From the NCBI RefSeq assembly GCF_900446255.1, contig NZ_UIGI01000001.1, forward strand, positions 3,622,763-3,686,762: 64,000 nucleotides of DNA. The letters run 5' to 3'. Position numbers and translations under genes: made by a program. The notes below the pieces were generated by a model. It was not told the origin of the DNA. It saw only the letters and a list, made by a program, of their open reading frames with translations, and searched no databases. Each line of letters starts with the position of its first letter. Position 1 is the first letter of the stretch. This document shows positions 1 through 41,949 of the stretch, in pieces. Source of the DNA: Buttiauxella agrestis. GTDB taxonomy: Bacteria > Pseudomonadota > Gammaproteobacteria > Enterobacterales > Enterobacteriaceae.

Positions 1-405
1 ATAAGCGGGGCCAAATGCCGATGACGGGAATATTTTCAGGCACTGAGCGCCCGCGTCCAGCGCGCTAAACGCTTCACTTGCCGTGGCGCAACCAGCGCAC
101 ACCAGCATTCCGGTATCGACTGCCCGGCGTATCACCGTCGGGTTGGTATTCGGCGTAACCACCAGTTTGGCTCCCGCTTGCGCCAGGAAATCGACCTGCT
201 CCACATTCAGCACCGTTCCCGCGCCGATACAGGCTTGTTCGCCATAAAGGCTGACCATTTGCGGAATGCTCTGTTGCCAGTCGGGTGAGTTAAGTGGGAT
301 TTCGATATAGCAAAACCCTTCTTCAATCAGCGCGCCAACGTGGGCGCTGGCTTCATACGGGTGAATTCCCCGTAAAATGGCGACCAAAAGTTTAGCGTCT
401 TGCAT
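1..405 (-). CDS. dgoA: 2-dehydro-3-deoxy-6-phosphogalactonate aldolase, partial (C-terminus outside window)
   Basis: Class I KDPG/KDPGal aldolase that splits 2-keto-3-deoxy-6-phosphogalactonate into pyruvate and glyceraldehyde 3-phosphate in the cytoplasm. About 135 N-terminal residues are visible; the family is about 205 long, so roughly 70 are cut off by the window edge. The reading begins MQDAKLLVAILRGIHPYEA and contains the family blocks EIPLNSP, IGAGTVL, VVTPN and LKIFPSSAFGP; the lysine in LKIFP is the Schiff-base lysine of the family. The ATG at 405 has AAGGAG about 8 nt upstream and overlaps the end of dgoK by 14 bp, indicating translational coupling. Confidence 0.93.
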   Translation of the reverse strand, partial: MQDAKLLVAILRGIHPYEASAHVGALIEEGFCYIEIPLNSPDWQQSIPQMVSLYGEQACIGAGTVLNVEQVDFLAQAGAKLVVTPNTNPTVIRRAVDTGMLVCAGCATASEAFSALDAGAQCLKIFPSSAFGPAY

Positions 406-1255
406 CGATAATGCTCCTTATTCCTTGCTGGAAGGCGGCATCGCCCGCAATTTCCTGGCTGGCAATATTTGCTTTTGCCAGCGCCTGGCGATAACGGCGA
501 CACAGCGATTCGTTGCCGACCAACGTGACATGTTTAACGGCGAGTTCATGGCTCATCGCGGCGACTTCCGCGCCGATCAGCAAACCCGAAAGCCATTCAC
601 TCACGCACTCTGGCGGCAAATCGCCCAGGACGCGCGACGCGCGGGCCTCGAATAAACGACTCACCAGCGATGGCGAATCCAGCCCGCTTTGCAGGCCAGT
701 ATTAAACGCAGCGTCATTATCATGCTGTTCTGGCAGGCCTTTGCCGATAAGCGAATGATTCATCAGCAGATGATGTAATTCCCCGGTCATCGCCGTGGTA
801 AAACCGCTCACTGAACCTTCGTGAATCTGCACCCATTTGCTGTGCGTGCCAGGCATCACGTAACAATCAGCGGGAGCGAGTTGCATGGCTCCGATAAGCT
901 GCGTCTCCTCGCCGCGCATCACGCTGCGCGCCGTTTTCAGCCCCGGCACAATCCACACCTGCGGTGCGATTTCAAAGAGTTGAGCGCCAATCTCATGCAG
1001 CGTGACCGGGCAAGGCAGGTATGGCACGGTATGCCACCCCGCATCGCTGCCAATCATTCCCGCCATAATCACAGGAATATCCTGCGCATCGCGCCACGGC
1101 TGAATGTACTTTTCAAACACCTGGCGCGGCGTTTGCTCGGTTAACCGGCTCACACCAAGCGGCTGTTGCAGGCTGTCCACGCATTGCCCATCGCGATACA
1201 ACCAGGCGCGCAAATGCGTGGAGCCCCAATCAATAGCGATATAACCGGCATTCAT
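392..1255 (-). CDS. dgoK: 2-dehydro-3-deoxygalactonokinase
   Basis: Phosphorylates 2-keto-3-deoxygalactonate with ATP at C6, the step before DgoA. The 287-residue length matches E. coli DgoK (about 292). The N-terminus YIAIDWGSTHLRAWLY is the phosphate-binding start of this sugar-kinase fold, and MRGEETQLIGA, MPGTHSKWVQ, MTGELHHLL and LSGLLIGAEVA are family signatures. The start codon overlaps the stop of the symporter gene by 4 bp (ATGA), and the end overlaps dgoA, so the three genes form one operon. dgoR, dgoD and dgoT, usual partners in E. coli, are not seen; dgo genes here sit with an SSS symporter and amino-compound enzymes instead. Confidence 0.95.
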   Translation of the reverse strand: MNAGYIAIDWGSTHLRAWLYRDGQCVDSLQQPLGVSRLTEQTPRQVFEKYIQPWRDAQDIPVIMAGMIGSDAGWHTVPYLPCPVTLHEIGAQLFEIAPQVWIVPGLKTARSVMRGEETQLIGAMQLAPADCYVMPGTHSKWVQIHEGSVSGFTTAMTGELHHLLMNHSLIGKGLPEQHDNDAAFNTGLQSGLDSPSLVSRLFEARASRVLGDLPPECVSEWLSGLLIGAEVAAMSHELAVKHVTLVGNESLCRRYRQALAKANIASQEIAGDAAFQQGIRSIIDARR

Positions 1256-2742
1256 CGTGCGTTCCCCGTTGCACGTTTGCCCAACGGAACAGGTACGGCT
1301 TCCGGTTGGTTTTCGCGTTCACGCGTGATCATCTCCAGTGCTTCTTCGCGGCTCATTTTGCTGGCGGGAGTCAGCAGCGTCACCACTACGGAAAGCACCA
1401 GACTGGTCAACACTGACGGCACACAAGGGTTGCCCCAGTAGGCCATCCAGCTGTCATTGGTCAGCAGCACCATCGAGGTTCCCGCACCGCCTAGCAGCGC
1501 TGCCAGCGCACCTTGCCAGTTAAAGCGCGTCCAGAAGCGGCCCAGAATCGAGCAGATAAACATGCCGGACATGATCATGGAGATCATTTTGGTGATGTAG
1601 CTAATGATGTCGTTCGAGGTCAGTGCGAACAGCAGCGCCAGGCCAATCACCAGCACCAGGAAAATACGTGACATACGAATCGCTTTTTCAGGCGCAGGCA
1701 TATGGCCGGTAATTAAGGTGTACAAATCGCGCAGCACGATGGACACCGCAGCAATCGCATCCGAGCTGCCCGAGGACATGTTCGCCGACATCCCGGCAAT
1801 CAATACCAGCATCGCCAGCATGGGCGGCAGGACTTGCGTCGCAAACAAGAAAGCAAAACCGCTGTTCTCAAGCGCCGGGTTCATGGTGTACGCCGCCATG
1901 CCAATGATCGCGGGCAGGAAAGAGAAACCAAGATACAACAGGCCAGTAATGACAAACGATTTACGCACCGTGCCGACCGATTTAGCGGAGTAAATCCGCT
2001 GGCGATAAGAAGGCGTTGCCAGCACGCCGACACCAATCACCATCGCCAACGAGAACGCAGGTAATACACCTAATTTATCCACGGCAAACAGACTTTGCGC
2101 CGCCGGGTCTACAGCCTCCTGAATATGGCTCCAGCCCCCGACATGGTGAACCGCCAATACTGCCATCAGGATAAACCCGCCAAAAAGAATCAATGACTGA
2201 ACGGTATCAATCCACACCACAGCGGAATATCCACCGATGCCGACATAAACAATAAAGGCCGCAGCAATAATAATTTTCGCCGTATTAATATCTATGCCAC
2301 TGGCCCAGGCGAGATATAAACCGCCACCCAGAATATGCGCACCGAGCCAGCCGATAGAAGCGATGAATATTAATATCGCCACCACGTTCTTAATAATTTT
2401 ACTACCACCGGTATAATAAGATATTTCTTCGCTCATGGTCATAAAGCGCATTTTACGCACCGGCGCAAATAACCAGGCAACCAGCAAAATACCCACTGCG
2501 CCACCAAGGCCATATAGCATACCCGCCCAACCGTTGGTGTAGCCAAAACCCACCGCACCCACGCTTGAACCGGTGCCTACCATGGTGCCAACGGTTGAAC
2601 CCAGCGTTAAAATCAATGGCATTGAACGGCCACCTAATAAAAAGTCATCGCCATTTTTTTGGTGGCGGGAGACATACCAGCCGAGAACAATCATCGCGCA
2701 GGCATATATCGCAAACCAAATCAGAAAAGACATATTATTCAT
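1252..2742 (-). CDS. sodium:solute symporter (SSS family)
   Basis: A 496-residue integral membrane protein with about 13 hydrophobic segments, typical of the SSS/PanF-PutP superfamily, which imports solutes with Na+. The N-terminal GDDFLLGGRSMPLILTLGST with following TMVGTGSSVG is the characteristic TM1 region, and the fifth segment GIGGYSAVVWIDTVQS is the SSS signature region. The ATG at 2742 has TGGAAG upstream. It is coupled to dgoK (4 bp overlap), so its substrate is probably the sugar acid or amino-sugar acid feeding DgoK/DgoA; in E. coli that role belongs to the MFS protein DgoT. The substrate itself cannot be read from the sequence. Confidence 0.88.
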   Translation of the reverse strand: MNNMSFLIWFAIYACAMIVLGWYVSRHQKNGDDFLLGGRSMPLILTLGSTVGTMVGTGSSVGAVGFGYTNGWAGMLYGLGGAVGILLVAWLFAPVRKMRFMTMSEEISYYTGGSKIIKNVVAILIFIASIGWLGAHILGGGLYLAWASGIDINTAKIIIAAAFIVYVGIGGYSAVVWIDTVQSLILFGGFILMAVLAVHHVGGWSHIQEAVDPAAQSLFAVDKLGVLPAFSLAMVIGVGVLATPSYRQRIYSAKSVGTVRKSFVITGLLYLGFSFLPAIIGMAAYTMNPALENSGFAFLFATQVLPPMLAMLVLIAGMSANMSSGSSDAIAAVSIVLRDLYTLITGHMPAPEKAIRMSRIFLVLVIGLALLFALTSNDIISYITKMISMIMSGMFICSILGRFWTRFNWQGALAALLGGAGTSMVLLTNDSWMAYWGNPCVPSVLTSLVLSVVVTLLTPASKMSREEALEMITRERENQPEAVPVPLGKRATGNAR

Positions 2743-2867
2743 GGCTCACTTCCAGGTTAATTATAAAGATGAAATTAGCCGCCTGAAAAAAGATACAGGA
2801 AACCCGTTGGCACGTTCCTGAGAAGTGCCGCATTATTTTTAATTTAATTTTTGTCGAGGAATTATCG

Positions 2868-2917
2868 CCCTCACCCTAACCCTCTACCTGAAGGAGAGGG
2901 CCGGGTTGAGGGTTGTT
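2868..2917. repeat. CCCTCACCCTAACCC-type intergenic palindrome
   Basis: Imperfect hairpin made of nested complementary blocks (CCCTC/GAGGG, CCC/GGG, CCTCT/AGAGG) between the RidA-like gene and the symporter gene. A longer member of the same family lies at 51050-51133. It may act as a mRNA-stabilising or weak terminator hairpin within the operon. Confidence 0.75.
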
Positions 2918-3307
2918 TTAGCGATCCGCCCGATAACAGGTCAAATCCACTTCCACTTTGCAGTCCACCACCAAATCCGCCACGCAGCACACACGTGCTG
3001 GCGGATGGTCAGAAAAGAATTCAGCGAACACTTTGTTAAACGACTGGAAGTAACGCGCATCGGTGAGGAAAACTTTTACGTGCACCACATCAGCCAGGGT
3101 GTAACCCGCGTCCTGCATGATGTCCACACAGTTCTGAATCGCCAGACGCGACTGCTCGATAATCCCGCCTTCGACAACCTCGCCATCTTTCATCGGCGTC
3201 TGGCCGGAAACATACAGCCACCCGCCCGCCTCTACAGCCTTCGCGAAAGGCAGTTTCTGCCCGCCCGTCCCGGTGCTGCCGCCGACGCCATAACGTTTAA
3301 TGCTCAT
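2918..3307 (-). CDS. RidA family (YjgF/YER057c/UK114) protein
   Basis: A 129-residue cytoplasmic protein of the RidA family, whose founding members hydrolyse reactive enamine/imine intermediates released by PLP-dependent dehydratases. Visible family elements are the GGWLYVSGQTPM segment, the LADVVHVKVFLTD segment, and PPARVCCVADLVVDCKVEVDLTCY; the arginine in PARVCC corresponds to the conserved substrate-binding Arg. It lies 17 bp downstream of the deacylase gene on the same strand. A RidA partner makes most sense if a neighbouring PLP enzyme releases an enamine, which supports a dehydratase/deaminase role for the gene at 4958. Confidence 0.88.
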   Translation of the reverse strand: MSIKRYGVGGSTGTGGQKLPFAKAVEAGGWLYVSGQTPMKDGEVVEGGIIEQSRLAIQNCVDIMQDAGYTLADVVHVKVFLTDARYFQSFNKVFAEFFSDHPPARVCCVADLVVDCKVEVDLTCYRADR

Positions 3308-3324
3308 TGTTGCTCCTTAATTGT

Positions 3325-4755
3325 TTACCGACGTAAAAAACGCCCGGCACGCCCAATCACTTTCTTATCCCGACCATAGCTCATGACACCGTTAACCATC
3401 ACGGCTTCAATACCGGCTGCTGGCTGCTGCGGATGGCTAAAGCTCGCCACATCACGCACTGTTTCAGGGTCAAACATCACCAAATCAGCATAATAGCCGC
3501 ATTTTACCAGGCCGCGCTCGGCAAGCTGGAAACGTGCCGCCGACATGCCCGTCATCTTATGCACCGCCACCGTCAATGGGAATAATTTCTCGTCACGGCT
3601 GTAATGGCCGAGCACGCGAGGGAATGCACCCCACAAGCGCGGATGCGGCATCGGATCGTTTGGCAATCCGTCGGAGCCGACCATTGTCACCGGGTAACTC
3701 AACACGCGTCGCACGTCCTGCTCGTCCATGTTGTAGTAAATCGCCCCGGCGGGCATCAGCCGCTTTCCTGCCTCAACCAGCGTCATCGCCCAGCTTTCCG
3801 CAATTTGCTTAAGCGACTGTCCGGCGACTTCGGGATGCGGCTGCGACCAGGTAATGATGATGTCGAAATCTTCGGTAATTTGTTTCACATCCAGCGTCGA
3901 AGAGCTGGCGGAATACGGGTAACAATCGCAGGAAACATCCTGCTGCTGGCGAACTTTATCGAATAATTTCAGCGTTTCGACAGTCCGTCCCCAGTTCTTC
4001 GCCCCGGCACATTTATGGTGCGAAACCACCACTGGCACTTTCCCGTGGCGGCCAATGCGGAATGCCTCATCAAGCGCCTCGAGAATCGGTTCAAATTCAG
4101 AGCGCAAGTGAGTGGTGTAGATGCCGTTGCCCGCGGCCAGTTCTTCCGCCAGCGCCATCACTTCTTCGGTGGTGGAATGGAATGCGCTGGCGTAGGCAAG
4201 CCCGGTACTCAACCCAAGGCCGCCTTGTTGCAAGGCCAGACGGAGCTGTTCTCGCATCGCGCTAATTTCCTCACGCGTGGCTTCGCGGAACAAATCGTCC
4301 ATATGATTATTGCGCAGTGCGGTATGACCAATCAGCGTGCCGACGTTCACAGCGGGTTTCGCCTGCTCCACCGCCTCGGCGTAGGCGGCAACCGTGGGGT
4401 AAATAAACTGTTCCGCGTCACCGAGTAAGTTCATCGGGTCCGGCACGTTGCCTTTCATGGTCGCCGTCGCCGCGCTGATTCCGCAGTTGCCGACAATCAC
4501 CGTGGTGATGCCCTGGCTGATCTTCGGCAAATATTCCGGCATACGAATCACGTTAATGTCATCGTGGGTGTGCACGTCGATAAAACCCGGAGCCAGCACG
4601 CGGCCTGTACCGTCGATTTCATGATGTGCAGATTCGCTAATCGACGGTGCGATTTGCGCAATCCTTTCGCCCTGCACCGCCACATCAGCGCGATACTCCG
4701 CGCCCCCGCTTCCGTCGATGACCGTGACATTTTTAAACAAATAGTCGAACTGCAT
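3325..4755 (-). CDS. N-acyl-D-amino-acid deacylase / D-aminoacylase family amidohydrolase
   Basis: A 476-residue metal-dependent hydrolase of the D-aminoacylase group in the amidohydrolase superfamily, which removes acyl groups from N-acyl-D-amino acids. Visible are the N-terminal beta-sandwich strand (LFKNVTVIDGSG), the metal ligands H62 and H64 in FIDVHTHDD, the conserved cysteine in VIVGNCGIS, later histidines in TTHLRSE and VVVSHHKCAG, and the catalytic aspartate region MVGSDGLP. A longer frame reaches 4797, but the ATG at 4755 has AGGA 4 nt upstream and matches the family start, so it was chosen. Divergent from the PLP enzyme across 202 bp. The acyl substrate is unknown. Confidence 0.88.
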   Translation of the reverse strand: MQFDYLFKNVTVIDGSGGAEYRADVAVQGERIAQIAPSISESAHHEIDGTGRVLAPGFIDVHTHDDINVIRMPEYLPKISQGITTVIVGNCGISAATATMKGNVPDPMNLLGDAEQFIYPTVAAYAEAVEQAKPAVNVGTLIGHTALRNNHMDDLFREATREEISAMREQLRLALQQGGLGLSTGLAYASAFHSTTEEVMALAEELAAGNGIYTTHLRSEFEPILEALDEAFRIGRHGKVPVVVSHHKCAGAKNWGRTVETLKLFDKVRQQQDVSCDCYPYSASSSTLDVKQITEDFDIIITWSQPHPEVAGQSLKQIAESWAMTLVEAGKRLMPAGAIYYNMDEQDVRRVLSYPVTMVGSDGLPNDPMPHPRLWGAFPRVLGHYSRDEKLFPLTVAVHKMTGMSAARFQLAERGLVKCGYYADLVMFDPETVRDVASFSHPQQPAAGIEAVMVNGVMSYGRDKKVIGRAGRFLRR

Positions 4756-4957
4756 GGCTTCCTGACCCCCGTTATGTTCTGGGCTAAAGTTAACCATTTA
4801 CAAGCGTAAAAAACAGTGGAAGACTACGCAAAATACATATGAAATTATGATACTTTTATTCAAAACAAAGATTACACAAAGTAATTTCTCATAATTATCA
4901 ATAAATTAAAACTGATACCCAGTCTGAAAGAAAAGCCACCCCCAAAGGAATAATGTT
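4756..4957. promoter_or_regulatory. divergent promoter region, deacylase operon / PLP enzyme
   Basis: AT-rich 202-bp region between two divergent starts. GAAATTA at 4841-4847 and its complement TAATTTC at 4882-4888 form an inverted pair about 41 bp apart, roughly four helical turns, which could bind one regulator at two places. The nonamer TGAAATTAT at 4840-4848 equals the left half of a site in front of the RpiR gene (7404-7412). The regulator is not proven. Confidence 0.45.
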
Positions 4958-6178
4958 ATGAAATACCAGAAAAGTTACCTCGTCCCACACAAGTCCGCCA
5001 CGTTATTCACCCCGGCAAATATCCTGAATGAAGACGTTTGCCTGCCTGCGGCGATTGTCAAAAAAACGGCTCTTGAGAACAATATTCAGTGGATGCAGCG
5101 TTACGCTGATACCCGTGGTGTGTCGTTGGCCCCGCACGGAAAAACAACCATGACGCCGTGGATTTTCCAGCAGCAACAGCAAGCGGGAGCCTGGGCAATT
5201 GGCGTCGGTAGCGCCTGGCAAGCCAGCATCGCGATGGTCAGCGGTATCAAGCGCGTATTGATGGTCAACCAATTGGTTGGCAAGGCGAATATGCAGTTGG
5301 TTTCGCAGCTCAAAGCACACTATCCCGACGTCGATTATCTGTGTTGTGTCGATAGCATTGAGAACGCAAAAACGCTTTCCGCCTTCTTTGCCGCACAAAG
5401 CCAACAGCTCGATATTTTGCTGGAGCTGGGCGTGCCCGGTGGTCGCTGCGGTTGCCGCACTGCCGAGCAAGCGCTGGCGTTAGCCGAAGAAACATCATCA
5501 CTTCCGGCGCTGCGTTTACGCGGGCTGGAGCTTTATGAAGGCGTGCTGCATGGCGAAAACCCGCAGCCGAAAGTCGAAGCATTACTGCGTGATGCCGCAG
5601 CGCTCGCCTGCAAACTGGAGCGTTACGTCGACGGGGAATTTATCCTCACCGGCGCGGGTTCCGTCTGGTATGACGTGGTCTGCAATGTCTGGCTTGAAGC
5701 GAAGAAGCCAGCGAACTGCCGCGTGGTGATTCGCCCCGGTTGTTACATCACGCATGATGCGGGGATTTATCAGGAAGCGCAGGACGAATTAATGGCACGC
5801 GACAAAACGGCCTGTGATCTAGGGGGGGATTTAACCTCCGCGCTGGAACTGGTTGCGATGGTGCAATCGGTGCCGGAGAGCGACCGCGCGATTGTGAATT
5901 TCGGCAAGCGCGACAGCGCCTTTGATGCCGGATTACCGCAGCCCATCGCCCATTATCGTGCCGGTAAAGCGCTGGAAAATGCGGCTGACACTATCGAAAC
6001 CACCGGAATTATGGACCAGCACGCGATGCTGAAACTCAAACCAGGTGCCGATGTGCAGGTGGGGGATATTCTGGTCTTCAGCACCTCGCATCCGTGTCTG
6101 ACATTCGACAAATGGAAAGCGCTGTATCTGGTGGATGATGGCTATCAGGTTCTGGAAACCCTAGAAACCGCGTTCTAA
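4958..6178 (+). CDS. PLP-dependent D-serine dehydratase / D-threonine aldolase-like enzyme (amino acid deaminase)
   Basis: A 406-residue fold-type III PLP enzyme with an alanine-racemase-like N-terminal barrel and a D-serine-dehydratase-like C-terminal domain. The PLP lysine is K62 in LAPHGKTTM; the zinc ligand pair of eukaryotic-type D-serine dehydratases is seen as H378 and C380 in TSHPCLTFDKW. Family enzymes remove water and ammonia from D-serine, split D-threonine-like compounds, or deaminate D-configured hydroxy-amino acids. The ATG at 4958 follows an AAAGGA Shine-Dalgarno. Its divergent neighbours (deacylase, RidA, DgoK, DgoA) suggest it converts a 2-amino-2-deoxy sugar acid into 2-keto-3-deoxy acid plus ammonia, which is inference. 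Confidence 0.85.
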   Translation: MKYQKSYLVPHKSATLFTPANILNEDVCLPAAIVKKTALENNIQWMQRYADTRGVSLAPHGKTTMTPWIFQQQQQAGAWAIGVGSAWQASIAMVSGIKRVLMVNQLVGKANMQLVSQLKAHYPDVDYLCCVDSIENAKTLSAFFAAQSQQLDILLELGVPGGRCGCRTAEQALALAEETSSLPALRLRGLELYEGVLHGENPQPKVEALLRDAAALACKLERYVDGEFILTGAGSVWYDVVCNVWLEAKKPANCRVVIRPGCYITHDAGIYQEAQDELMARDKTACDLGGDLTSALELVAMVQSVPESDRAIVNFGKRDSAFDAGLPQPIAHYRAGKALENAADTIETTGIMDQHAMLKLKPGADVQVGDILVFSTSHPCLTFDKWKALYLVDDGYQVLETLETAF

Positions 6179-6190
6179 CCCATTAGAATA

Positions 6191-6252
6191 AATGTCGGAT
6201 GGCGCGAGCTAATCCGACCTACAATCCCATTGATTTTGTAGGTCGGATTAGC
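6191..6252. repeat. REP/BIME-type palindromic element
   Basis: Two inverted REP-like units: TGTCGGATGGCGCGAGCTAA followed by the GTCGGATTAGC-type unit read on both strands (TAATCCGACCTACAA at about 6210-6224 and TTGTAGGTCGGATTA at about 6236-6250). It sits between the convergent ends of the PLP enzyme and the RpiR gene and can fold as a bidirectional terminator-like hairpin. Confidence 0.8.
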
Positions 6253-6261
6253 ACCAATAAC

Positions 6262-7347
6262 TCAGCTATCAATCCCTTCGCACAGCAAATCAATCACTAA
6301 CAACGCGCCGTAACGCGTGTCTTTAAGTGGCAGATGAATATCTTCGCGATGGATAAACGCGCCCACTTCCTGGCCGATAATCACTAACTCAGCCCCCAGC
6401 CGACGCGCCTGATGCGACGCCGCAATCAGCGAGTTTTCTGGCGCACTTCCGGCGAAAATCACCAACACCTGCCCTTTCCCCAGCATCGAAGCAGTGATAC
6501 TCATCAGCGCTCCATCCTGGCAAATATTGGCCGGATAACCCTGAGTCAGCAGGCGATATTGCAACAGACTGGCAAAGGGCGTATCGGCCGCGCTGGCGCT
6601 AAAAATATGCACCGCCTTCGCCTGTTTTAACCGTGCAATCGCCTGGTTCATCGCGGAGGGCAGCAGTTCGCACAACTGGGAATTTAACGCATGTTGCACA
6701 TTGCCCAGTTTTTCGCGCCACGGAGCAGGCATATCGCCCGCAGAAACCGGCGTGCTGGCCTGCGCCAGCTTCATGCGTAAATCACGAATATCGTCGCAGC
6801 CAGCCGCGCGAGCAAAACGGGTGATGGTAGCCGGGCTGACGCCTGCCGCCGTCGCGAGTTGATCGATGGTTGCAGAAGCCGCAAAGGAGACATCTTCAAG
6901 AATGGTCTGCGCGACGCGCGATTCCTGCTGGCTGAAGTCATTCAGGCGGTTGCGGATCTGGCCGAGAATATCGCTGCTACTTTCGCGCCCGATGGAGTGC
7001 GAAAAGCGCTCGAGTATTTCGCTACCCACTCCGGCATTTTTAGCCAGTGCTTGCAGAGTGCCGGGGTCCATCCAGGCCGCATCACCCAGCATCGGCGCGG
7101 CTGGCGTTTGCTGGCTGCTCTCCTGCTGTTGGTGGCGCACCTGGCCGATAAAATCATTGATATCGTCACAACCAATGCTCCGGGCGAAGTGTTGTAATGT
7201 TGCCGGGCTGACACCCGCTTTGGCCGCCAGCTCTTCCATCGTCGCGTCTGGGATCTGCGCAAAATTGTCGAGGAAAAAGCGCGCAAGGCGTGATTCTTGC
7301 GCGGGCAGACCCGATAACCCATGCACCAGTTGGTAAACAATATCCAT
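6262..7347 (-). CDS. MurR/RpiR-type transcriptional regulator with three tandem HTH units and a SIS domain
   Basis: A 361-residue regulator; ordinary family members have about 280-300. Three tandem helix-turn-helix units are visible: residues 36-70 (TMEELAAKAGVSPATLQHFA), 97-131 (TLQALAKNAGVGSEILERFS) and 160-190 (TIDQLATAAGVSPATITRFA). Units one and three have the usual leading helices (LPAQESRLARFFLDN and FSQQESRVAQTILED); the middle one is degenerate and lacks them. A SIS sugar-phosphate-binding domain follows at about 220-355 (AKAVHIFSAS, GKGQVLVIFAG). It is divergent from the PTS/GH4 genes, and three TGAAA-N5-TTTCA palindromes lie between, so it probably controls them and itself in response to a phospho-sugar. 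Confidence 0.88.
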   Translation of the reverse strand: MDIVYQLVHGLSGLPAQESRLARFFLDNFAQIPDATMEELAAKAGVSPATLQHFARSIGCDDINDFIGQVRHQQQESSQQTPAAPMLGDAAWMDPGTLQALAKNAGVGSEILERFSHSIGRESSSDILGQIRNRLNDFSQQESRVAQTILEDVSFAASATIDQLATAAGVSPATITRFARAAGCDDIRDLRMKLAQASTPVSAGDMPAPWREKLGNVQHALNSQLCELLPSAMNQAIARLKQAKAVHIFSASAADTPFASLLQYRLLTQGYPANICQDGALMSITASMLGKGQVLVIFAGSAPENSLIAASHQARRLGAELVIIGQEVGAFIHREDIHLPLKDTRYGALLVIDLLCEGIDS

Positions 7348-7403
7348 AACAGGAGGTGTCCTAATGTCGGCATTTTCTGCTCGTTAAAGGCATCATAAAT
7401 TAT

Positions 7404-7418
7404 TGAAATTATTTTTCA
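7404..7418. promoter_or_regulatory. putative RpiR operator, copy 1
   Basis: TGAAATTATTTTTCA fits TGAAA-N5-TTTCA, the first of three such palindromes between the divergent RpiR regulator and the PTS IIB gene. It lies about 60 bp upstream of the regulator start, suitable for autoregulation. Confidence 0.55.
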
Positions 7419-7476
7419 ATCCATCCAGCCAGATGAGCTTCTTTTCATCGTTTTAATTATCAGTGAGTTCCATTTT

Positions 7477-7492
7477 TCTTATACAGATCACA
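7477..7492 (+). promoter_or_regulatory. possible weak CRP site
   Basis: TCTTA-TACAGA-TCACA has a perfect right half (TCACA) but only three of five matches in the left half of the CRP consensus. Catabolite control would be expected for a beta-glucoside PTS, but this is weak evidence. Confidence 0.25.
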
Positions 7493-7545
7493 CTTTCGCC
7501 TTGTTGTGCCTTGCCTGAGCAATTATCCAACTGCGATCACACTCA

Positions 7546-7560
7546 TGAAAATAATTTTCA
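7546..7560. promoter_or_regulatory. putative RpiR operator, copy 2
   Basis: TGAAAATAATTTTCA is a perfect palindrome of the TGAAA-N5-TTTCA type; one more A/T pair on each side extends it to 17 bp. Confidence 0.6.
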
Positions 7561-7587
7561 TACATGCTAATTAAAACGGCTAATGTA

Positions 7588-7602
7588 TGAAATATGTTTT
7601 CA
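7588..7602. promoter_or_regulatory. putative RpiR operator, copy 3
   Basis: TGAAATATGTTTTCA fits TGAAA-N5-TTTCA and is centred 42 bp (four turns) from copy 2. It ends 18 bp before the IIB start codon, a position where bound protein would block transcription. Confidence 0.6.
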
Positions 7603-7620
7603 AACGAGAGGATTGTTGTA

Positions 7621-7926
7621 ATGAAAAAAATCATGTTGTGTTGCGCTGCGGGAATGTCCACCAGCATGCTGGTACAGAAAATGCGTGCCGAAGCGGCAAA
7701 GCGTTCAATGGACGTAGAAATTGAAGCGTTCCCGGTGGCAGAAATTGAAAACCAACTTCACCACGCCGATGTGGTGCTGCTTGGCCCACAAGTGCAGTTT
7801 GAATTACAACGTCTGACCGAACTTTCCACTCCGCGAGGCTTGCCTGTCGCGGTGATAGACATGATGGATTACGGCACCATGCGCGGCGACCGCGTGCTGG
7901 ATAAAGCCATTCAACTGATGGCCTGA
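7621..7926 (+). CDS. PTS lactose/cellobiose-family EIIB component
   Basis: A 101-residue cytoplasmic phosphocarrier that passes phosphate from a IIA protein to the incoming beta-glucoside. The phosphocysteine is C8 in MLCCAAGMSTSMLV, aligned with the cysteine of E. coli ChbB (FCSAGMSTS); ADVVLLGPQVQFEL is the second family block. The ATG at 7621 was chosen over an in-frame ATG at 7594 because GAGAGGA lies 8-9 nt upstream and it matches the family N-terminus. First gene of a IIB-GH4-IIC operon. No IIA gene is present in the window. Confidence 0.9.
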   Translation: MKKIMLCCAAGMSTSMLVQKMRAEAAKRSMDVEIEAFPVAEIENQLHHADVVLLGPQVQFELQRLTELSTPRGLPVAVIDMMDYGTMRGDRVLDKAIQLMA

Positions 7927-7943
7927 GGCCCGCGGAGAACAGC

Positions 7944-9245
7944 ATGAAAATTACCGTTGTTGGTGGGGGAAGCAGTTACACCCCGGAATTGATTGAAGGT
8001 TTGATTGAGCGCCACGCTTCACTGCCAATGGCGGAACTGGCACTGGTGGATGTCGAAGCCGGTCGCCAGAAAGTTGATATTATCGCCGCCCTCGCCCGCC
8101 GCATGCTCGATCGCAATGGCCTGGAAGCGGTAAAAGTCTCGGTGCATTTTGATGCCGACGAGGCGATAAAAGGCTCCAGTTTTGTCTTAACGCAATTGCG
8201 CGTCGGGCAACTTCCCGCGCGCGCCGCCGATGAACGTCTCGGTTTAAGCCACAAGCTGCTCGGTCAGGAAACCACGGGTGTGGGCGGTTTTGCCAAAGCG
8301 CTGCGCACCATTCCGGTGATGATGGATATTGCGAAACGCGTGGAGCGCCTGGCTCCCGACGCATGGATTATCAACTTCACCAATCCGGCTGGCATTGTGA
8401 CTGAAGCGGTTTCGCGCTACAGCAAGGCCAAGATTATCGGCCTGTGTAATGTGCCCGTCACCATGCATCACATGATTGCCGATATGCTGAAACTGCCTCA
8501 TGACAAAGTTTCGCTACGTTTTGCGGGCCTGAATCATATGGTTTGGGTACATAAAGTGCTGGCCGACGGACGCGATGCCACCGACGAAGTGATCGAAATG
8601 CTGTGCGACGGCGAGCAGCTTTCCATGAACAACATTAAAGCGATTCCGTGGCCTGCGGATTTGCTGCGCGCCCTGCGTGCGATTCCCTGCCCCTATCACC
8701 GCTATTTCTGGCAAACCCGCACCATGCTCGAAGACGAACTGGCAGACGCAGACACCAAAGGCACGCGTGCTGAGCTGGTGATGAAGGTGGAAGAGTCGCT
8801 GTTTAAGCTGTACGCCGACCCGAATCTGGATAAAAAGCCAGCAGAACTCAGCCAGCGCGGCGGATCGTTCTATTCCGAAGTCGCGGTGCAATTGATCAAT
8901 GCGCTACACAACAATCTCGGCGTTGAAATGGTGGTCAACACCGCCAATAACGGGGCGATTCAGGGCTTGCCGGACGATGCAGTCATCGAAACCAATTGCC
9001 TGATTGATGCCCTGGGCGCGCATCCGCTGGCCTTTGGCAAATTGCCGCTGCTGATGAATGGCCTGACACAACAAGTGAAAGATTTTGAACGCCTGACCAT
9101 AGAAGCCGCGGTTCACGGCGATAAGCAAAAAGCGTTGCTGGCGTTGGTGGCAAACCCGCTGGTGGCTGATGTCAATCTGGCTCAAACGTTGGTCGAAGAA
9201 GTATTAAGCATTAACAAAGCGTGGTTACCGCAGTTCAATCAGTAA
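7944..9245 (+). CDS. 6-phospho-beta-glucosidase, glycoside hydrolase family 4
   Basis: A 433-residue NAD+- and Mn2+-dependent GH4 enzyme that cleaves phosphorylated beta-glucosides such as cellobiose-6-phosphate by a redox mechanism. The Rossmann motif is near the N-terminus ([13 protein letters not shown]). The metal ligands are C168 in [11 protein letters not shown] and H198 in [16 protein letters not shown] is the family's NAD/substrate block. It resembles ChbF/CelF/LicH proteins. It lies 17 bp after the IIB gene with GGAG before the ATG, so PTS uptake and intracellular hydrolysis are made together. Confidence 0.92.
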
Positions 9246-9303
9246 TGGCTTTTCACCAAATATAAAAACAATACCCGGCGCTAAATCCTGCGCCGGAAAG
9301 GGG

Positions 9304-10674
9304 GTGTCTGTGTCTGTGAGTAAATCTATTATCGAAAAATACGTGCTGCCAACCGCGCTTAAAATCGCCGGGCAAAAGCATGTTCTGTCGGTGCGTGACG
9401 GTATCATTCTGAATATGCCGTTTATGCTTATCGGCTCGTTTTTCCTGATTTTTGCCTATCTTCCGGTGCCTGGATACGGGCAGATGATGACCAACCTGTT
9501 CGGCCCTACGTGGCAGGAAAAGGTGCTCTACCCGGTTAAAGCGACCTACGACATCATGGCGCTTATCTCCGCCTTTGGTATCGCGTATCGCCTGGCAGAA
9601 AAATATCGCACTATCGACCCGCTAACGGCAGGCGCGGTGTCGCTGGTGGCGTTTGTGATGACCATTCCGCAGCATATTATGTTTACTCCGGCTGCGGGTG
9701 GCGCGGCGCAACTGGTGAAAGGCGTGATGCCTATGGGCCAGATTGGCAGCCAGGGGCTGTTCGTCGCGATTATTATCGCCCTGCTCTCCACCGAAATTTA
9801 TCGTTTTATTCACAACCGCAATCTGGTTATCCGTATGCCGGAAGGCGTGCCGCCTGCGGTGGCAAAATCATTCCTGGCACTGATTCCTGGCTTCTGCGTT
9901 TTGGCGGTGGTTCTGGCGCTGCGCCTGTTGGTTGAAGCCACCCCGTTTGGCGACATCAACACCATGATTACCGATCTGGTTGGCATTCCGATGAGCCATG
10001 TTGGCGGCTCCTTGCCAGGCATGATTATCTCGGTATTGCTGATTGGGATTTTGTGGATGCTGGGCCTGCACGGCGACACTATCGTGCTGGTGTTTATCCG
10101 TCCGGTCTGGTTGAGCAATATGTCTGAAAACCTGGAAGCGTTCCAGAATGGCCTGCCGATTCCGCACATTATCACCCAGCAATTTTACGACTTGTGGATT
10201 GCCCCTGGCGGCACCGGCGCGTTGTTAGGTCTGGTGATATTTATGCTTATCCGCAGCCGCAGTGCGCAGATGAAACAGCTCGGTAAAATCGCCGCTCCAG
10301 GCAGCCTGTTTAACATCAGCGAACCGATGGTGTTCGGTATTCCAATCGTCATGAACCCGTATCTGGTGGTGCCGTTTATTCTGACGCCAGTGGTATTGGT
10401 GATTGTTTCTTACATCGCGATGACCACTGGACTGGTGGCAAAACCTGCGGGGATCGCCCTGCCGTTTACCACGCCAATTGTGGTCAGCGGATACCTTGCA
10501 ACCGGCGGGCATATTTCAGGTTCGATACTGCAAATTGTGAACCTCGGGATTTCGCTGGTGATGTATTACCCGTTCTTCCGCATCTGGGATAACCTGAAAT
10601 ACCGCGAAGAGCAGGCGAGTAAATCACAGAAAGAAGCGGCGGTTACGCCGGTTACTGAGCAGATTACTTCTTAG
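9304..10674 (+). CDS. PTS lactose/cellobiose-family EIIC permease
   Basis: A 456-residue membrane component of the cellobiose/chitobiose/lichenan PTS family with about ten hydrophobic segments. The family blocks RDGIILNMPFMLIGSFF, LGLHGDTIVL and NISEPMVFGIPIVMNP are present; the last contains the conserved glutamate and asparagine of the sugar site. Three in-frame GTG codons (9304, 9310, 9316) follow the purine-rich stretch AAAGGGG; 9310 has the best spacing, while 9304 is the longest reading. It completes the IIB-GH4-IIC operon, which is followed by a strong hairpin. Confidence 0.9.
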   Translation: MSVSVSKSIIEKYVLPTALKIAGQKHVLSVRDGIILNMPFMLIGSFFLIFAYLPVPGYGQMMTNLFGPTWQEKVLYPVKATYDIMALISAFGIAYRLAEKYRTIDPLTAGAVSLVAFVMTIPQHIMFTPAAGGAAQLVKGVMPMGQIGSQGLFVAIIIALLSTEIYRFIHNRNLVIRMPEGVPPAVAKSFLALIPGFCVLAVVLALRLLVEATPFGDINTMITDLVGIPMSHVGGSLPGMIISVLLIGILWMLGLHGDTIVLVFIRPVWLSNMSENLEAFQNGLPIPHIITQQFYDLWIAPGGTGALLGLVIFMLIRSRSAQMKQLGKIAAPGSLFNISEPMVFGIPIVMNPYLVVPFILTPVVLVIVSYIAMTTGLVAKPAGIALPFTTPIVVSGYLATGGHISGSILQIVNLGISLVMYYPFFRIWDNLKYREEQASKSQKEAAVTPVTEQITS

Positions 10675-38825: not shown

Positions 38826-38866
38826 TTGATTTTGCTCAATAACCAACCGGTAAATGTGGGTATTTT
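38826..38866 (+). promoter_or_regulatory. FNR-dependent fdnG promoter
   Basis: TTGAT-TTTG-CTCAA at 38826-38839 is an FNR box with one mismatch. A TATTTT -10 element at 38861-38866 implies a start near 38873, putting FNR at about -41, the class II position. The start codon is about 29 nt further on. Confidence 0.65.
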
Positions 38867-38901
38867 CGCGACCATTCATACGTCATAACAATGAGGTTAC
38901 G

Positions 38902-41900
38902 ATGGACGTCAGTCGCAGAAAATTTTTCAAGATCTGTGCCGGCGGGATGGCAGGGACTACCGCCGCAGTTCTGGGATTTTCTCCCAAAGCGGCACTTGCC
39001 GAGGTACGCAACTTTAAGCTTTTGCGTGCCAAAGAAACCCGCAATACCTGTACATACTGCTCAGTAGGCTGTGGTTTGTTGATGTACAGCCTGGGCGATG
39101 GCTCGAAAAACGCGAAATCCAGTATTTTCCATATTGAAGGCGACCCGGATCACCCGGTAAACCGTGGGGCGCTATGCCCGAAAGGCGCGGGTCTGCTGGA
39201 TTATATCCACAGCGAAAGCCGCCTGCGTTACCCGGAATACCGCGCGCCAGGCTCCGATAAATGGCAGCGCATCAGTTGGGAAGATGCGTTCGCGCGTATT
39301 TCTCGCCTGATGAAAGATGACCGCGATGCCAATTTCGTTGAGAAGAATGAGCAAAACGTCACGGTAAACCGTTGGCTCTCCACCGGCATGTTATGTGCGT
39401 CGGCGGCCAGCAACGAAACCGGGATGCTGACACAGAAATTTGTCCGCTCGCTGGGCATGTTAGCGGTAGATAACCAGGCGCGCGTCTGACACGGACCAAC
39501 GGTAGCAAGTCTTGCTCCAACATTTGGTCGCGGTGCGATGACCAACCACTGGGTTGATATCAAAAACGCCAACGTTGTGATGGTGATGGGCGGCAACGCC
39601 GCTGAAGCGCATCCGGTGGGTTTCCGCTGGGCGATGGAAGCCAAAAACAACAACGACGCCACCCTGATTGTGGTCGATCCGCGCTTTACCCGCACCGCTT
39701 CGGTGGCGGATATTTATGCGCCAATCCGCTCCGGCACCGACATTACTTTCCTGTCGGGCGTTCTGCTGTACCTGATTTCCAATAACAAAATCAACGCCGA
39801 ATACGTAAAGCATTACACCAATGCCAGCCTTTTGGTGCGTGACGATTTTAGCTTCGATGATGGCCTGTTTAGCGGCTATGACGAAGCCAAACGCCAGTAC
39901 GACAAAACCAGCTGGAACTATCAGTTCGACGAAAACGGTTATGCGAAACGCGACGACACGCTCACCGACCCGCGCTGCGTGTGGAACCTGCTCAAAGAGC
40001 ACGTTTCCCGTTATACGCCGGAAATGGTCGAGCATATTTGCGGCACGCCGCAGGCCGATTTCCTGAAAGTGTGTGAAGTGCTGGCCTCAACCAGTGCTGC
40101 CGATCGCACTACTACCTTCCTGTACGCGCTGGGCTGGACGCAACACACCGTGGGCGCACAAAACATTCGCACCATGGCGATGATCCAGTTATTGCTCGGC
40201 AATATGGGCATGGCGGGTGGCGGCGTGAACGCCTTGCGCGGGCACTCCAATATTCAGGGTTTGACCGATCTCGGCCTGCTGTCCACCAGCCTGCCGGGTT
40301 ATCTGACGCTGCCTTCTGAAAAGCAAACCGACCTGCAAACTTATCTGACGGCAAACACGCCGAAAGCCACGCTGCCAGGCCAGGTGAACTATTGGGGCAA
40401 CTATCCGAAGTTCTTCGTTAGCCTGATGAAAGCATTCTATGGCGATGATGCGCGTAAAGATAACAACTGGGGCTTTGACTGGCTGCCGAAGTGGGACCAG
40501 GCGTACGACGTGCTGAAGTATTTCGACATGATGGACCGCAACAAAGTCACGGGTTACATCTGCCAGGGCTTTAACCCGGTGGCGTCGTTCCCGGATAAAA
40601 ACAAAATTGTCGCCAGCCTTAGCAAGCTGAAATATCTGGTGATTATCGACCCGCTCGTCACCGAAACATCTAACTTCTGGCAGAACCACGGCGAGATGAA
40701 TGACGTGAACCCGGCGGCGATTCAGACCGAAGTGTTCCGCCTGCCATCCACCTGTTTTGCCGAAGAAGACGGTTCGATTGCCAACTCCGGGCGCTGGTTG
40801 CAGTGGCACTGGAAAGGGGCTGACGCACCGGGAGAAGCGCGTAACGACGGAGAAATTCTGGCCGGGATTTACCATCAAATCCGCCAGCTTTATCGCTCAG
40901 AAGGCGGTAAAGGTGCAGAATCGTTGCTGAAAATGAGCTGGCATTACGAGCAGCCAGACAGCCCAGAGTCCGAAGAAGTCGCCAAAGAGAACAACGGCTA
41001 CGCGCTGGAAGATCTCTACGATCCGGCTGGGAATTTGCTGGCGAAGAAAGGCCAGCTTCTGGACTCGTTTGCGCTGTTACGTGACGACGGCACCACCGCG
41101 TCTGCCTGCTGGATTTATACCGGCAGCTGGACGGCGAAAGGCAACCAGATGGCGAACCGCGATAACGCCGATCCGTCCGGTCTGGGTAACACGCTCGGCT
41201 GGGCCTGGGCGTGGCCGCTCAACCGCCGCATTATCTACAACCGCGCGTCTGCCGATCCACAGGGCAAACCGTGGGACCCGAAACGCATGTTGATTCAATG
41301 GAACGGCGCGAAGTGGGTCGGGAACGATATCCCGGACTACAACACTGCCGCACCGGGCAGCGGCGTCGGGCCGTTTATCATGCAGCCGGAAGGTTTAGGC
41401 CGCCTGTTTGCCATCGACAAAATGGCGGAAGGCCCATTCCCTGAGCATTACGAGCCGTTTGAAACGCCGCTGGGCACCAACCCGCTGCATCCAAATGTGG
41501 TGTCGAACCCGGCGGCTCGCCTGTATGAAGCTGACGCTAAACGCATGGGCAAACGCCACGAGTTCCCGTATGTCGGCACCACGTATCGCCTGACCGAACA
41601 TTTCCATACCTGGACTAAACACTCGCGGCTTAACGCGATTGCGCAGCCCGAGCAGTTTGTGGAAATCAGCGAAAAGCTGGCGAAAGCCAAAGGCATTGCC
41701 AACGGCGACCACGTGAAAGTCAGCAGCAAACGCGGATTTATTCGCGCCGTTGCGGTCGTCACCCAGCGCCTGCAAACGCTGAACGCGGGCGGGCAGGAAG
41801 TGGAAACCGTGGGTATTCCGCTGCACTGGGGCTTTGAAGGCACGGCGCGTAAAGGCTATCTCGCCAACACGCTCACGCCGTCCGTCGGTGACGCTAACTC

Positions 41901-41949
41901 GCAAACGCCAGAGTACAAGGCGTTTCTGGTCAACATTGAGAAGGCGTAA
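38902..41949 (+). CDS. fdnG: formate dehydrogenase-N major subunit (selenoprotein, Mo-bis-MGD)
   Basis: A 1015-residue periplasmic catalytic subunit that oxidises formate to CO2 for anaerobic nitrate respiration. A Tat signal (SRRKFF, residues 5-10) starts the protein; the [4Fe-4S] cysteines are in [13 protein letters not shown] plus a later cysteine in ALCPKGAG. The UGA at 39487-39489 is residue 196, within [14 protein letters not shown], exactly the selenocysteine position of E. coli FdnG, so the reading continues through it to 41949. Total length and the C-terminus VNIEKA match FdnG. Three-gene operon with fdnH and fdnI. An ordinary gene-finder would split it in two. Confidence 0.97.
39487..39525 (+). 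promoter_or_regulatory. bacterial SECIS element with UGA selenocysteine codon
   Basis: Immediately after the UGA lies a hairpin whose apical part is AGCAA-GTC-TTGCT (39504-39516), at the distance used by SelB to insert selenocysteine. The flanking CCAAC and TTTGG segments may extend the stem. Confidence 0.8.

Follow-up and report, generated by a model that had tools for sequence, protein, structure and literature searches.

Oxidised N-acetylglucosamine derived from chitin (GlcNAc1A) is broken down in Pseudoalteromonas prydzensis ACAM 620 by the ong pathway, a route shown in 2022. According to the accessible sections of that report (PMC9537276), the sodium:solute symporter (SSS) OngIT, the deacetylase OngB, the fold-III pyridoxal phosphate (PLP) enzyme OngC, the RidA protein OngD and the kinase KdgK convert GlcNAc1A to 2-keto-3-deoxygluconate (KDG) 6-phosphate with no earlier phosphorylation step, and mutants lacking ongB, ongC, ongD or kdgK could not grow on GlcNAc1A; OngC acts on glucosaminate (GlcN1A) and also on D-Ser and D-Thr, and clusters of Klebsiella and Serratia are counted as 'ong clusters' with an added kdgA. 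The P. prydzensis enzyme PpOngB is a GlcNAc1A deacetylase; on the N-acetyl-D-amino acids tried, the part of its description available to us (PMC12017989) records no detectable activity. Two Aeromonas strains are reported to have no close OngB or OngC (PMC11653859). Here we analyse a related six-gene cluster at positions 1–6178 of a 64,000-nucleotide stretch of Buttiauxella agrestis DNA (contig NZ_UIGI01000001.1; 'the window' hereafter means this whole stretch). The cluster very probably serves import and breakdown of an oxidised amino sugar by an ong-type route, and we favour with reasonable confidence the galacto epimer of the ong substrate, N-acetyl-D-galactosaminate (2-acetamido-2-deoxy-D-galactonate), as the compound consumed.

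Open reading frames (ORFs) and Pfam families agree with the six-gene cluster described in the original prediction, dgoA being cut by the window edge. The features are as follows.

1..405, minus strand: dgoA, 2-dehydro-3-deoxy-6-phosphogalactonate (KDPGal) aldolase, first 135 residues only (Pfam Aldolase, 8.8e-20)
392..1255, minus strand: dgoK, 2-keto-3-deoxygalactonate kinase of the DGOK family (Pfam DGOK, 1e-92)
1252..2742, minus strand: OngIT-like SSS-family sodium:solute symporter, predicted to take up N-acetyl-aldosaminate (Pfam SSF, 3.2e-43)
2918..3307, minus strand: RidA family, OngD-like enamine/imine hydrolase (Pfam Ribonuc_L-PSP, 5.4e-25)
3325..4797, minus strand: OngB-type N-acetyl-aldosaminate deacetylase, a subtype V amidohydrolase (Pfam Amidohydro_3; 51% identical to PpOngB)
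3730..3732, minus strand: codon of deacetylase Asn356, the cavity residue equivalent to PpOngB position 348
4798..4957, no strand: divergent promoter region between the ongB-type and ongC-type genes, with a conserved TGATACTTTTATTCA stretch
4958..6178, plus strand: OngC-type fold-III PLP aldosaminate dehydratase/deaminase (Pfam D-ser_dehydrat, 3e-17, and Ala_racemase_N)

Like the ong system, the cluster combines an SSS symporter, a deacetylase whose catalytic and contact residues are unchanged, a fold-III PLP deaminase and RidA, and deamination would not be preceded by phosphorylation. A nearby RpiR regulator, the counterpart of OngR, is seen through relatives only: in B. agrestis (L046) and B. 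izardii (L001), whose deacetylases are the closest named relatives of the window's among the best 80 of 291 loci (99% and 96% identity), it lies on the opposite strand directly past dgoA, beyond the window's left end. In contrast to the KDG kinase of ong, or the PfkB-type KDG kinase and frequent 2-keto-3-deoxy-6-phosphogluconate (KDPG)-type aldolase of marine ong clusters, the window has a DGOK-family kinase, DgoK, and a KDPGal-type aldolase, DgoA; it has Asn where ong has Gly at OngB position 348, and a Pfam scan found no hexosaminidase or TonB receptor in the nine genes of 1–9245. An AA10 lytic polysaccharide monooxygenase (LPMO), the type of enzyme from which GlcNAc1A originates, was found in 0/5 Buttiauxella carriers of the cluster as against 15/15 Vibrionaceae carriers (family f21; G280 is the Vibrio record L055). 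The window cluster is expected to deaminate a 2-amino-2-deoxy-aldonate, giving a 2-keto-3-deoxy acid. The same conversion occurs in the Salmonella D-glucosaminate route (dga), which phosphorylates during uptake by a phosphotransferase system (PTS), and in the non-PTS D-glucosaminate dehydratase route of Pseudomonas; to our knowledge, neither includes a deacetylase or a DgoK/DgoA tail.

In the pathway that we favour, the symporter would import N-acetyl-D-galactosaminate, the OngB-type zinc enzyme would take off acetate, and the OngC-type PLP enzyme would eliminate the C3 hydroxyl, with RidA clearing the enamine/imine and ammonia being released, to give 2-keto-3-deoxy-D-galactonate (KDGal); DgoK would phosphorylate this product and DgoA would cleave it to pyruvate and glyceraldehyde 3-phosphate, probably under the control of the RpiR repressor encoded beyond the window. 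A D configuration at C2, expected from the deacetylase family, loss of the C3 hydroxyl at the PLP step and a galacto C4, expected from the tail, together point to 2-acetamido-2-deoxy-D-galactonate; as the tail consists of galactose-type enzymes, the nutrient is probably the galactosamine form. Gene identities, residue signatures, conservation and the strict pairing of cassettes are what the analysis shows directly; we infer the C4 configuration, the N-acetyl group and each activity. Talosaminate was set aside, as its C2 would be L-configured; D-gulosaminate, the C3 epimer, is formally possible. The original prediction had proposed a non-PTS chain acting on a galacto-configured N-acyl-aminosugar acid, and this stands as the best reading. 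Its chain was right in kind, yet not new as chemistry, because the steps as far as the keto-deoxy acid have been described for GlcNAc1A as the ong pathway (PMC9537276, PMC12017989, each in its accessible sections) and the OngB residues are kept; its D-aminoacylase-type deacylase holds as to fold, the specificity residues being those of OngB instead, and the zinc His/Cys pair that it placed in the PLP enzyme is present as His378/Cys380, alongside Lys62.

The deacetylase is 51% identical to PpOngB across 472 aa, and its C105/H230/H260, D376, E234, S298–S300 and Q306 correspond to C97/H222/H252, D368, E226, S290–S292 and Q298 of that enzyme. It thus retains the metal site, the catalytic Asp and the contacts for the acetamido group, the carboxylate and the C3–C6 hydroxyls. 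The available part of the structural report names Ser292 and Gln298 as setting OngB apart from D-aminoacylases (Thr; Leu or Arg), positions 193, 256, 298 and 348 as the lining of the side-chain pocket, and Glu226 as the contact of the C4 hydroxyl (PMC12017989). Ser300 and Gln306 of the window enzyme match the OngB specificity residues, and the D-aminoacylase signature is not present. The D-aminoacylases AfDam and BbDam, which act on N-acyl-D-amino acids, share the fold family, the subtype V Cys/His/His metal site and the catalytic Asp, but have T and L/R at the two specificity positions. For the K. pneumoniae orthologue of the window deacetylase a solved structure is available, 9g5m; in the open-access literature we found no publication naming 9g5m or 9gv8. 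Among the other upstream functions, the PLP enzyme matches 3gwq ('D-serine deaminase') at 7.2e-118 by phmmer, RidA is 78–82% identical to the RidA of Vibrionaceae clusters, and symporter counterparts, 61–64% identical, occupy the equivalent position in L049–L052, L058 and L059.

The tail is tied to the transport gene by overlaps of 4 bp (SSS/dgoK) and 14 bp (dgoK/dgoA). The best NCBIfam match of DgoA is NF006600 (195 bits, cut-off 207, for a protein truncated by the window edge). Its identity to the dgoD-linked DgoA in the nearest genome compared is 72% over 129 aa, as against 38% over 107 aa to the Eda-type aldolase of Photobacterium (L049). Two sites affect KDPG/KDPGal stereoselectivity, A-I with V154 against P-V with T161, although single exchanges did not invert it, as given in the accessible part of the source (PMC4915726). 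The beta1 signature A-I of KDPGal aldolases is read directly in the window (A11-I12); V154, in beta7, lies beyond the edge; at all 39 distinct loci with DgoK, the cluster DgoA has V there. A-I and V154 were found in 41/41 cluster DgoA rows (39 distinct loci), and P-V and T161 in 18/18 rows of cluster Eda-type aldolases (17 distinct loci).

The DgoK of L046, 76% identical to that of the window, matches the solved DgoK 3r1x at 2.5e-89. Cluster DgoK forms a clade distinct from dgo-operon DgoK, and cluster enzymes belong to several distinct DGOK lineages: a main clade (23 rows), which lies beside the dgo-operon enzymes; a Serratia type (L042, L043, L078), whose DgoK and DgoA share only 40–45% and 51–54% identity with those of the window, the place being taken by another galacto cassette; and a very remote type with another gene order (L048, L054, L077, L081, L082, L085–L088). 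Because these lineages are separate, kinases of the galacto family stand beside a single OngB clade more than once. Upstream in the remote-type clusters is a gene that, judged by its start, may encode an IclR-type regulator. The window DgoK shares 95% identity with the B. izardii enzyme (L001) but only 76% with the B. agrestis one (L046), although the flanking symporter and DgoA match those of B. agrestis at 97%; an exchange limited to dgoK seems to have taken place in one of them. The dgo operon (dgoRKADT) for D-galactonate by the De Ley–Doudoroff route shares the last two enzymes, and we considered that the cluster might be a fragment of it; this was ruled out, since in L001 and L046 it is the RpiR gene that follows dgoA, with no adjacent dgoD, dgoT or dgoR, as the original prediction had anticipated for dgoD and dgoT, and a separate dgoR-dgoK-dgoA-dgoD-dgoT operon lies elsewhere in the nearest genome compared (names by similarity; DgoK, DgoA and DgoD checked by comparison, dgoR and dgoT assigned by reading of the sequence). 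That genome has a third DgoK/aldolase pair as well.

A survey of 140 annotated loci (the best 80 of 291 and 60 more; 135 distinct) showed that the pairing of cassettes is strict: DgoK with DgoA in 39, PfkB with an Eda-type aldolase in 17, PfkB alone in 8, neither in 71 and mixed pairs in none, where 'neither' means no kinase or aldolase within 9 kb of fetched sequence and five of the 71 are short of downstream sequence. In Enterobacterales, a deacetylase of this type was found at 62 distinct loci, of which L079 is cut by a contig end. All six genes occur together in 37 of these, which rules out a chance juxtaposition, and L063 has five of the six, only the PLP gene being missing. Had the deacetylase usually occurred without dgoKA, the original prediction would have suffered; dgoKA lies beside it in 38/62, namely 38/48 loci with the symporter against 0/14 without (one of the 14 being L079), and a PfkB kinase in 0/62. 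Reduced clusters of PLP enzyme, deacetylase, RidA and RpiR, from which symporter, dgoK and dgoA are jointly absent, were seen in L003, L010, L011, L012, L014, L017–L020 and L045. A megablast search of E. coli and plasmid collections gave no match.

Position 348 follows the cassette. It is N or Q in 39/39 distinct DgoK loci and G or C in the 24/24 PfkB loci whose deacetylase has OngB-type residues, while M stands at this position in the remaining PfkB locus, which is of D-aminoacylase type; in place of the small residue of PpOngB (Gly) and the PfkB-linked loci, the window has Asn356. When 41 DgoK-linked rows were compared with 26 PfkB-linked OngB-type rows (the window, PpOngB and three repeat records included), 8/476 alignment columns separated them perfectly, and 348 (N/Q against C/G) was the only one of the four named pocket positions among these. 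That one of eight separating columns falls on four pocket positions of 476 is suggestive rather than strong evidence. The other seven columns do not track 348 in two further amide-348 lineages, save column 449 in one of them. Separating columns were also found in OngC (13) and SSS (12); these were set aside as specificity markers and are probably lineage markers, no OngC column fully tracking 348 in both of the other lineages.

Across genomes, DGOK tends to accompany the symporter. DGOK was found in 43/50 Enterobacterales carriers, in 36/37 with the symporter in the cluster against 7/13 without (7/12 leaving out L079). By rows, it accompanied 62/69 amide-348 deacetylases against 8/30 others, a row-level test that overstates the evidence, and outside Enterobacterales it was present in 7/7 amide-348 genomes; the two lineages there had been picked by residue 348, so only their DGOK status was counted as a test. 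Among 46 further carriers, LPMO genes were found in 26, including 6/6 in families f12 and f13 as against 0/7 amide-348 genomes of two other families.

Several observations weigh against the galactosaminate reading. The amide-348, DgoK-linked deacetylases of Enterobacterales, N and Q alike, fall into a single 29-row clade in a tree built without column 348 (Shimodaira–Hasegawa-like approximate likelihood-ratio support, SH-aLRT, 99), and this clade includes loci with no kinase. Only 2 independent pairs are available for cassette type, both agreeing with expectation, and for genome-wide DGOK there are 1 (starred branches) to 3 (all branches); because they are so few, no sign test can reach 0.05. 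The 7/7 outside Enterobacterales was counted as weak for an independent test, DGOK base rates being 55/71 and 41/90 in the two other amide-348 families (19/34 in the window's family). No dgoKA is visible in 24/62 Enterobacterales loci (one of them cut), 7/50 carriers lack any DGOK, and 4/25 PfkB calls rest on only 29–32% identity (L115, L117, L119, L131). One of the seven, Tatumella, has both symporter and LPMO; it is the only symporter-bearing carrier without DGOK and has no recognisable Eda either, and since both are missing it cannot decide between KDG and KDGal. LPMO genes occur in 17/50 Enterobacterales carriers, 9/28 of those with dgoKA included, and are not universal on the other side (1/8 carriers in families f7 and f25), so that we treat LPMO as a weak guide to substrate. 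Glu226, the C4-hydroxyl contact, is invariant in both the DgoK-linked and the PfkB-linked types, although this gives no clear argument either way as to a C4 epimer. Finally, we know of no natural source of N-acetyl-D-galactosaminate.

One rival reading is an ordinary GlcNAc1A (ong) cluster in which DgoK and DgoA, acting on KDG and KDPG, take over the roles of KdgK and Eda; this we regard as unlikely but deserving of serious consideration. It would account for the published GlcNAc1A contacts of OngB at C3, C4 and C5, for the LPMO genes, for the loci without dgoKA within the same deacetylase clade and for the listing of Klebsiella and Serratia as ong clusters with added kdgA in the accessible part of the ong report (PMC9537276). 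Nevertheless, every cluster DgoA retains the stereo-residues of KDPGal aldolase, DgoK comes from unlike lineages while PfkB is found in none of the 62 Enterobacterales loci, and position 348 differs. Moreover, Eda scored above the family cut-off in 6/7 genomes tested (5/5 Buttiauxella and the one Klebsiella among them, all except Tatumella); since the tested Buttiauxella and Klebsiella carry Eda, a KDG product would not need DgoKA.

The Eda genes of those six carriers also fit with a pathway for both epimers, in which the OngB and OngC types would take N-acetyl-glucosaminate and N-acetyl-galactosaminate, KDG passing to housekeeping KdgK and Eda and KDGal to the DgoK and DgoA of the cluster. 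Clusters without dgoKA could still run under such an arrangement, the invariant Glu226 could serve both C4 epimers, and OngC is broad in the published account (GlcN1A, D-Ser and D-Thr; PMC9537276, accessible sections). OngB enzymes, on the other hand, were very specific among the substrates tested, with no C4-epimeric aldonates noticed among these in the available part of the report (PMC12017989), and we consider a dual pathway rather improbable. Catabolism of N-acyl-D-amino acids such as N-acetyl-D-serine or -threonine, with dgoKA an unrelated neighbour, is suggested by the family names (D-aminoacylase, D-serine dehydratase, RidA) but is very improbable, the OngB-type S292/Q298 residues speaking against a D-amino-acid route and dgoK both overlapping the symporter gene and following its presence across loci.

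With slightly less confidence than for the window itself, we consider it likely that Enterobacterales (Buttiauxella, Klebsiella, Raoultella, Rahnella, Cedecea, part of Serratia and others) have a pathway devoted to N-acetyl-D-galactosaminate. It would be a branch of ong for the C4 epimer, so far counted as GlcNAc1A/chitin metabolism, with the switch marked by the amide at OngB 348 and by recurring recruitment of DgoK and DgoA. We found no description of galactosaminate or N-acetyl-galactosaminate catabolism in the open-access literature, most subscription journals lying outside the search. If this reading is true, oxidised N-acetylgalactosamine (GalNAc) feeds a common bacterial group that includes Klebsiella, the published assignment of the Klebsiella and Serratia clusters to chitin oxidation would need correcting, and a natural supply of C1-oxidised GalNAc would be implied. 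DgoK with V154 as against PfkB with T161 would offer a sequence rule for predicting the sugar from the cluster, and a single cavity residue, in a family with solved structures (9kb1, 9kb3, 9g5m), would offer a test of specificity.

Other features of the loci were noted. In the OngC–OngB intergenic regions, 9-mers from the TGATACTTTTATTCA stretch recurred in 39–45 of 70, the window included; a search of these regions for operators gave this conserved stretch, without a convincing palindrome, and it is a possible regulator site. Between the RidA and symporter genes, at 2868–2916, lies an inverted-repeat-like element, CCCTCACCC...GGGTTGAGGG, which we take to resemble the interspersed repeats of enterobacteria. 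L133 holds a D-aminoacylase-like relative (46%) with RpiR, PLP enzyme, DgoK and DgoA; it has Thr/Tyr at positions 292/298 and ABC-transporter-like genes nearby, no symporter being found at this locus. The MurR/RpiR-type regulator gene at 6262–7347, in which Pfam HTH_6 matches two stretches, a duplicated N-terminal helix–turn–helix region, was ruled out as regulator of the cluster, since it accompanies PTS IIB and GH4 genes (L001, L003, L010, L011, L016, L045, L046, L079). Next to it, 7594–10674 is probably an operon for a glycoside PTS: it encodes a PTS IIB of the lactose/cellobiose type, a GH4 glycosidase and a membrane protein that looks EIIC-like by sequence reading. Further along the window, two adjoining ORFs at 38854–41949 read like a formate dehydrogenase alpha subunit divided by an in-frame stop, the pattern that a selenocysteine TGA codon would produce.

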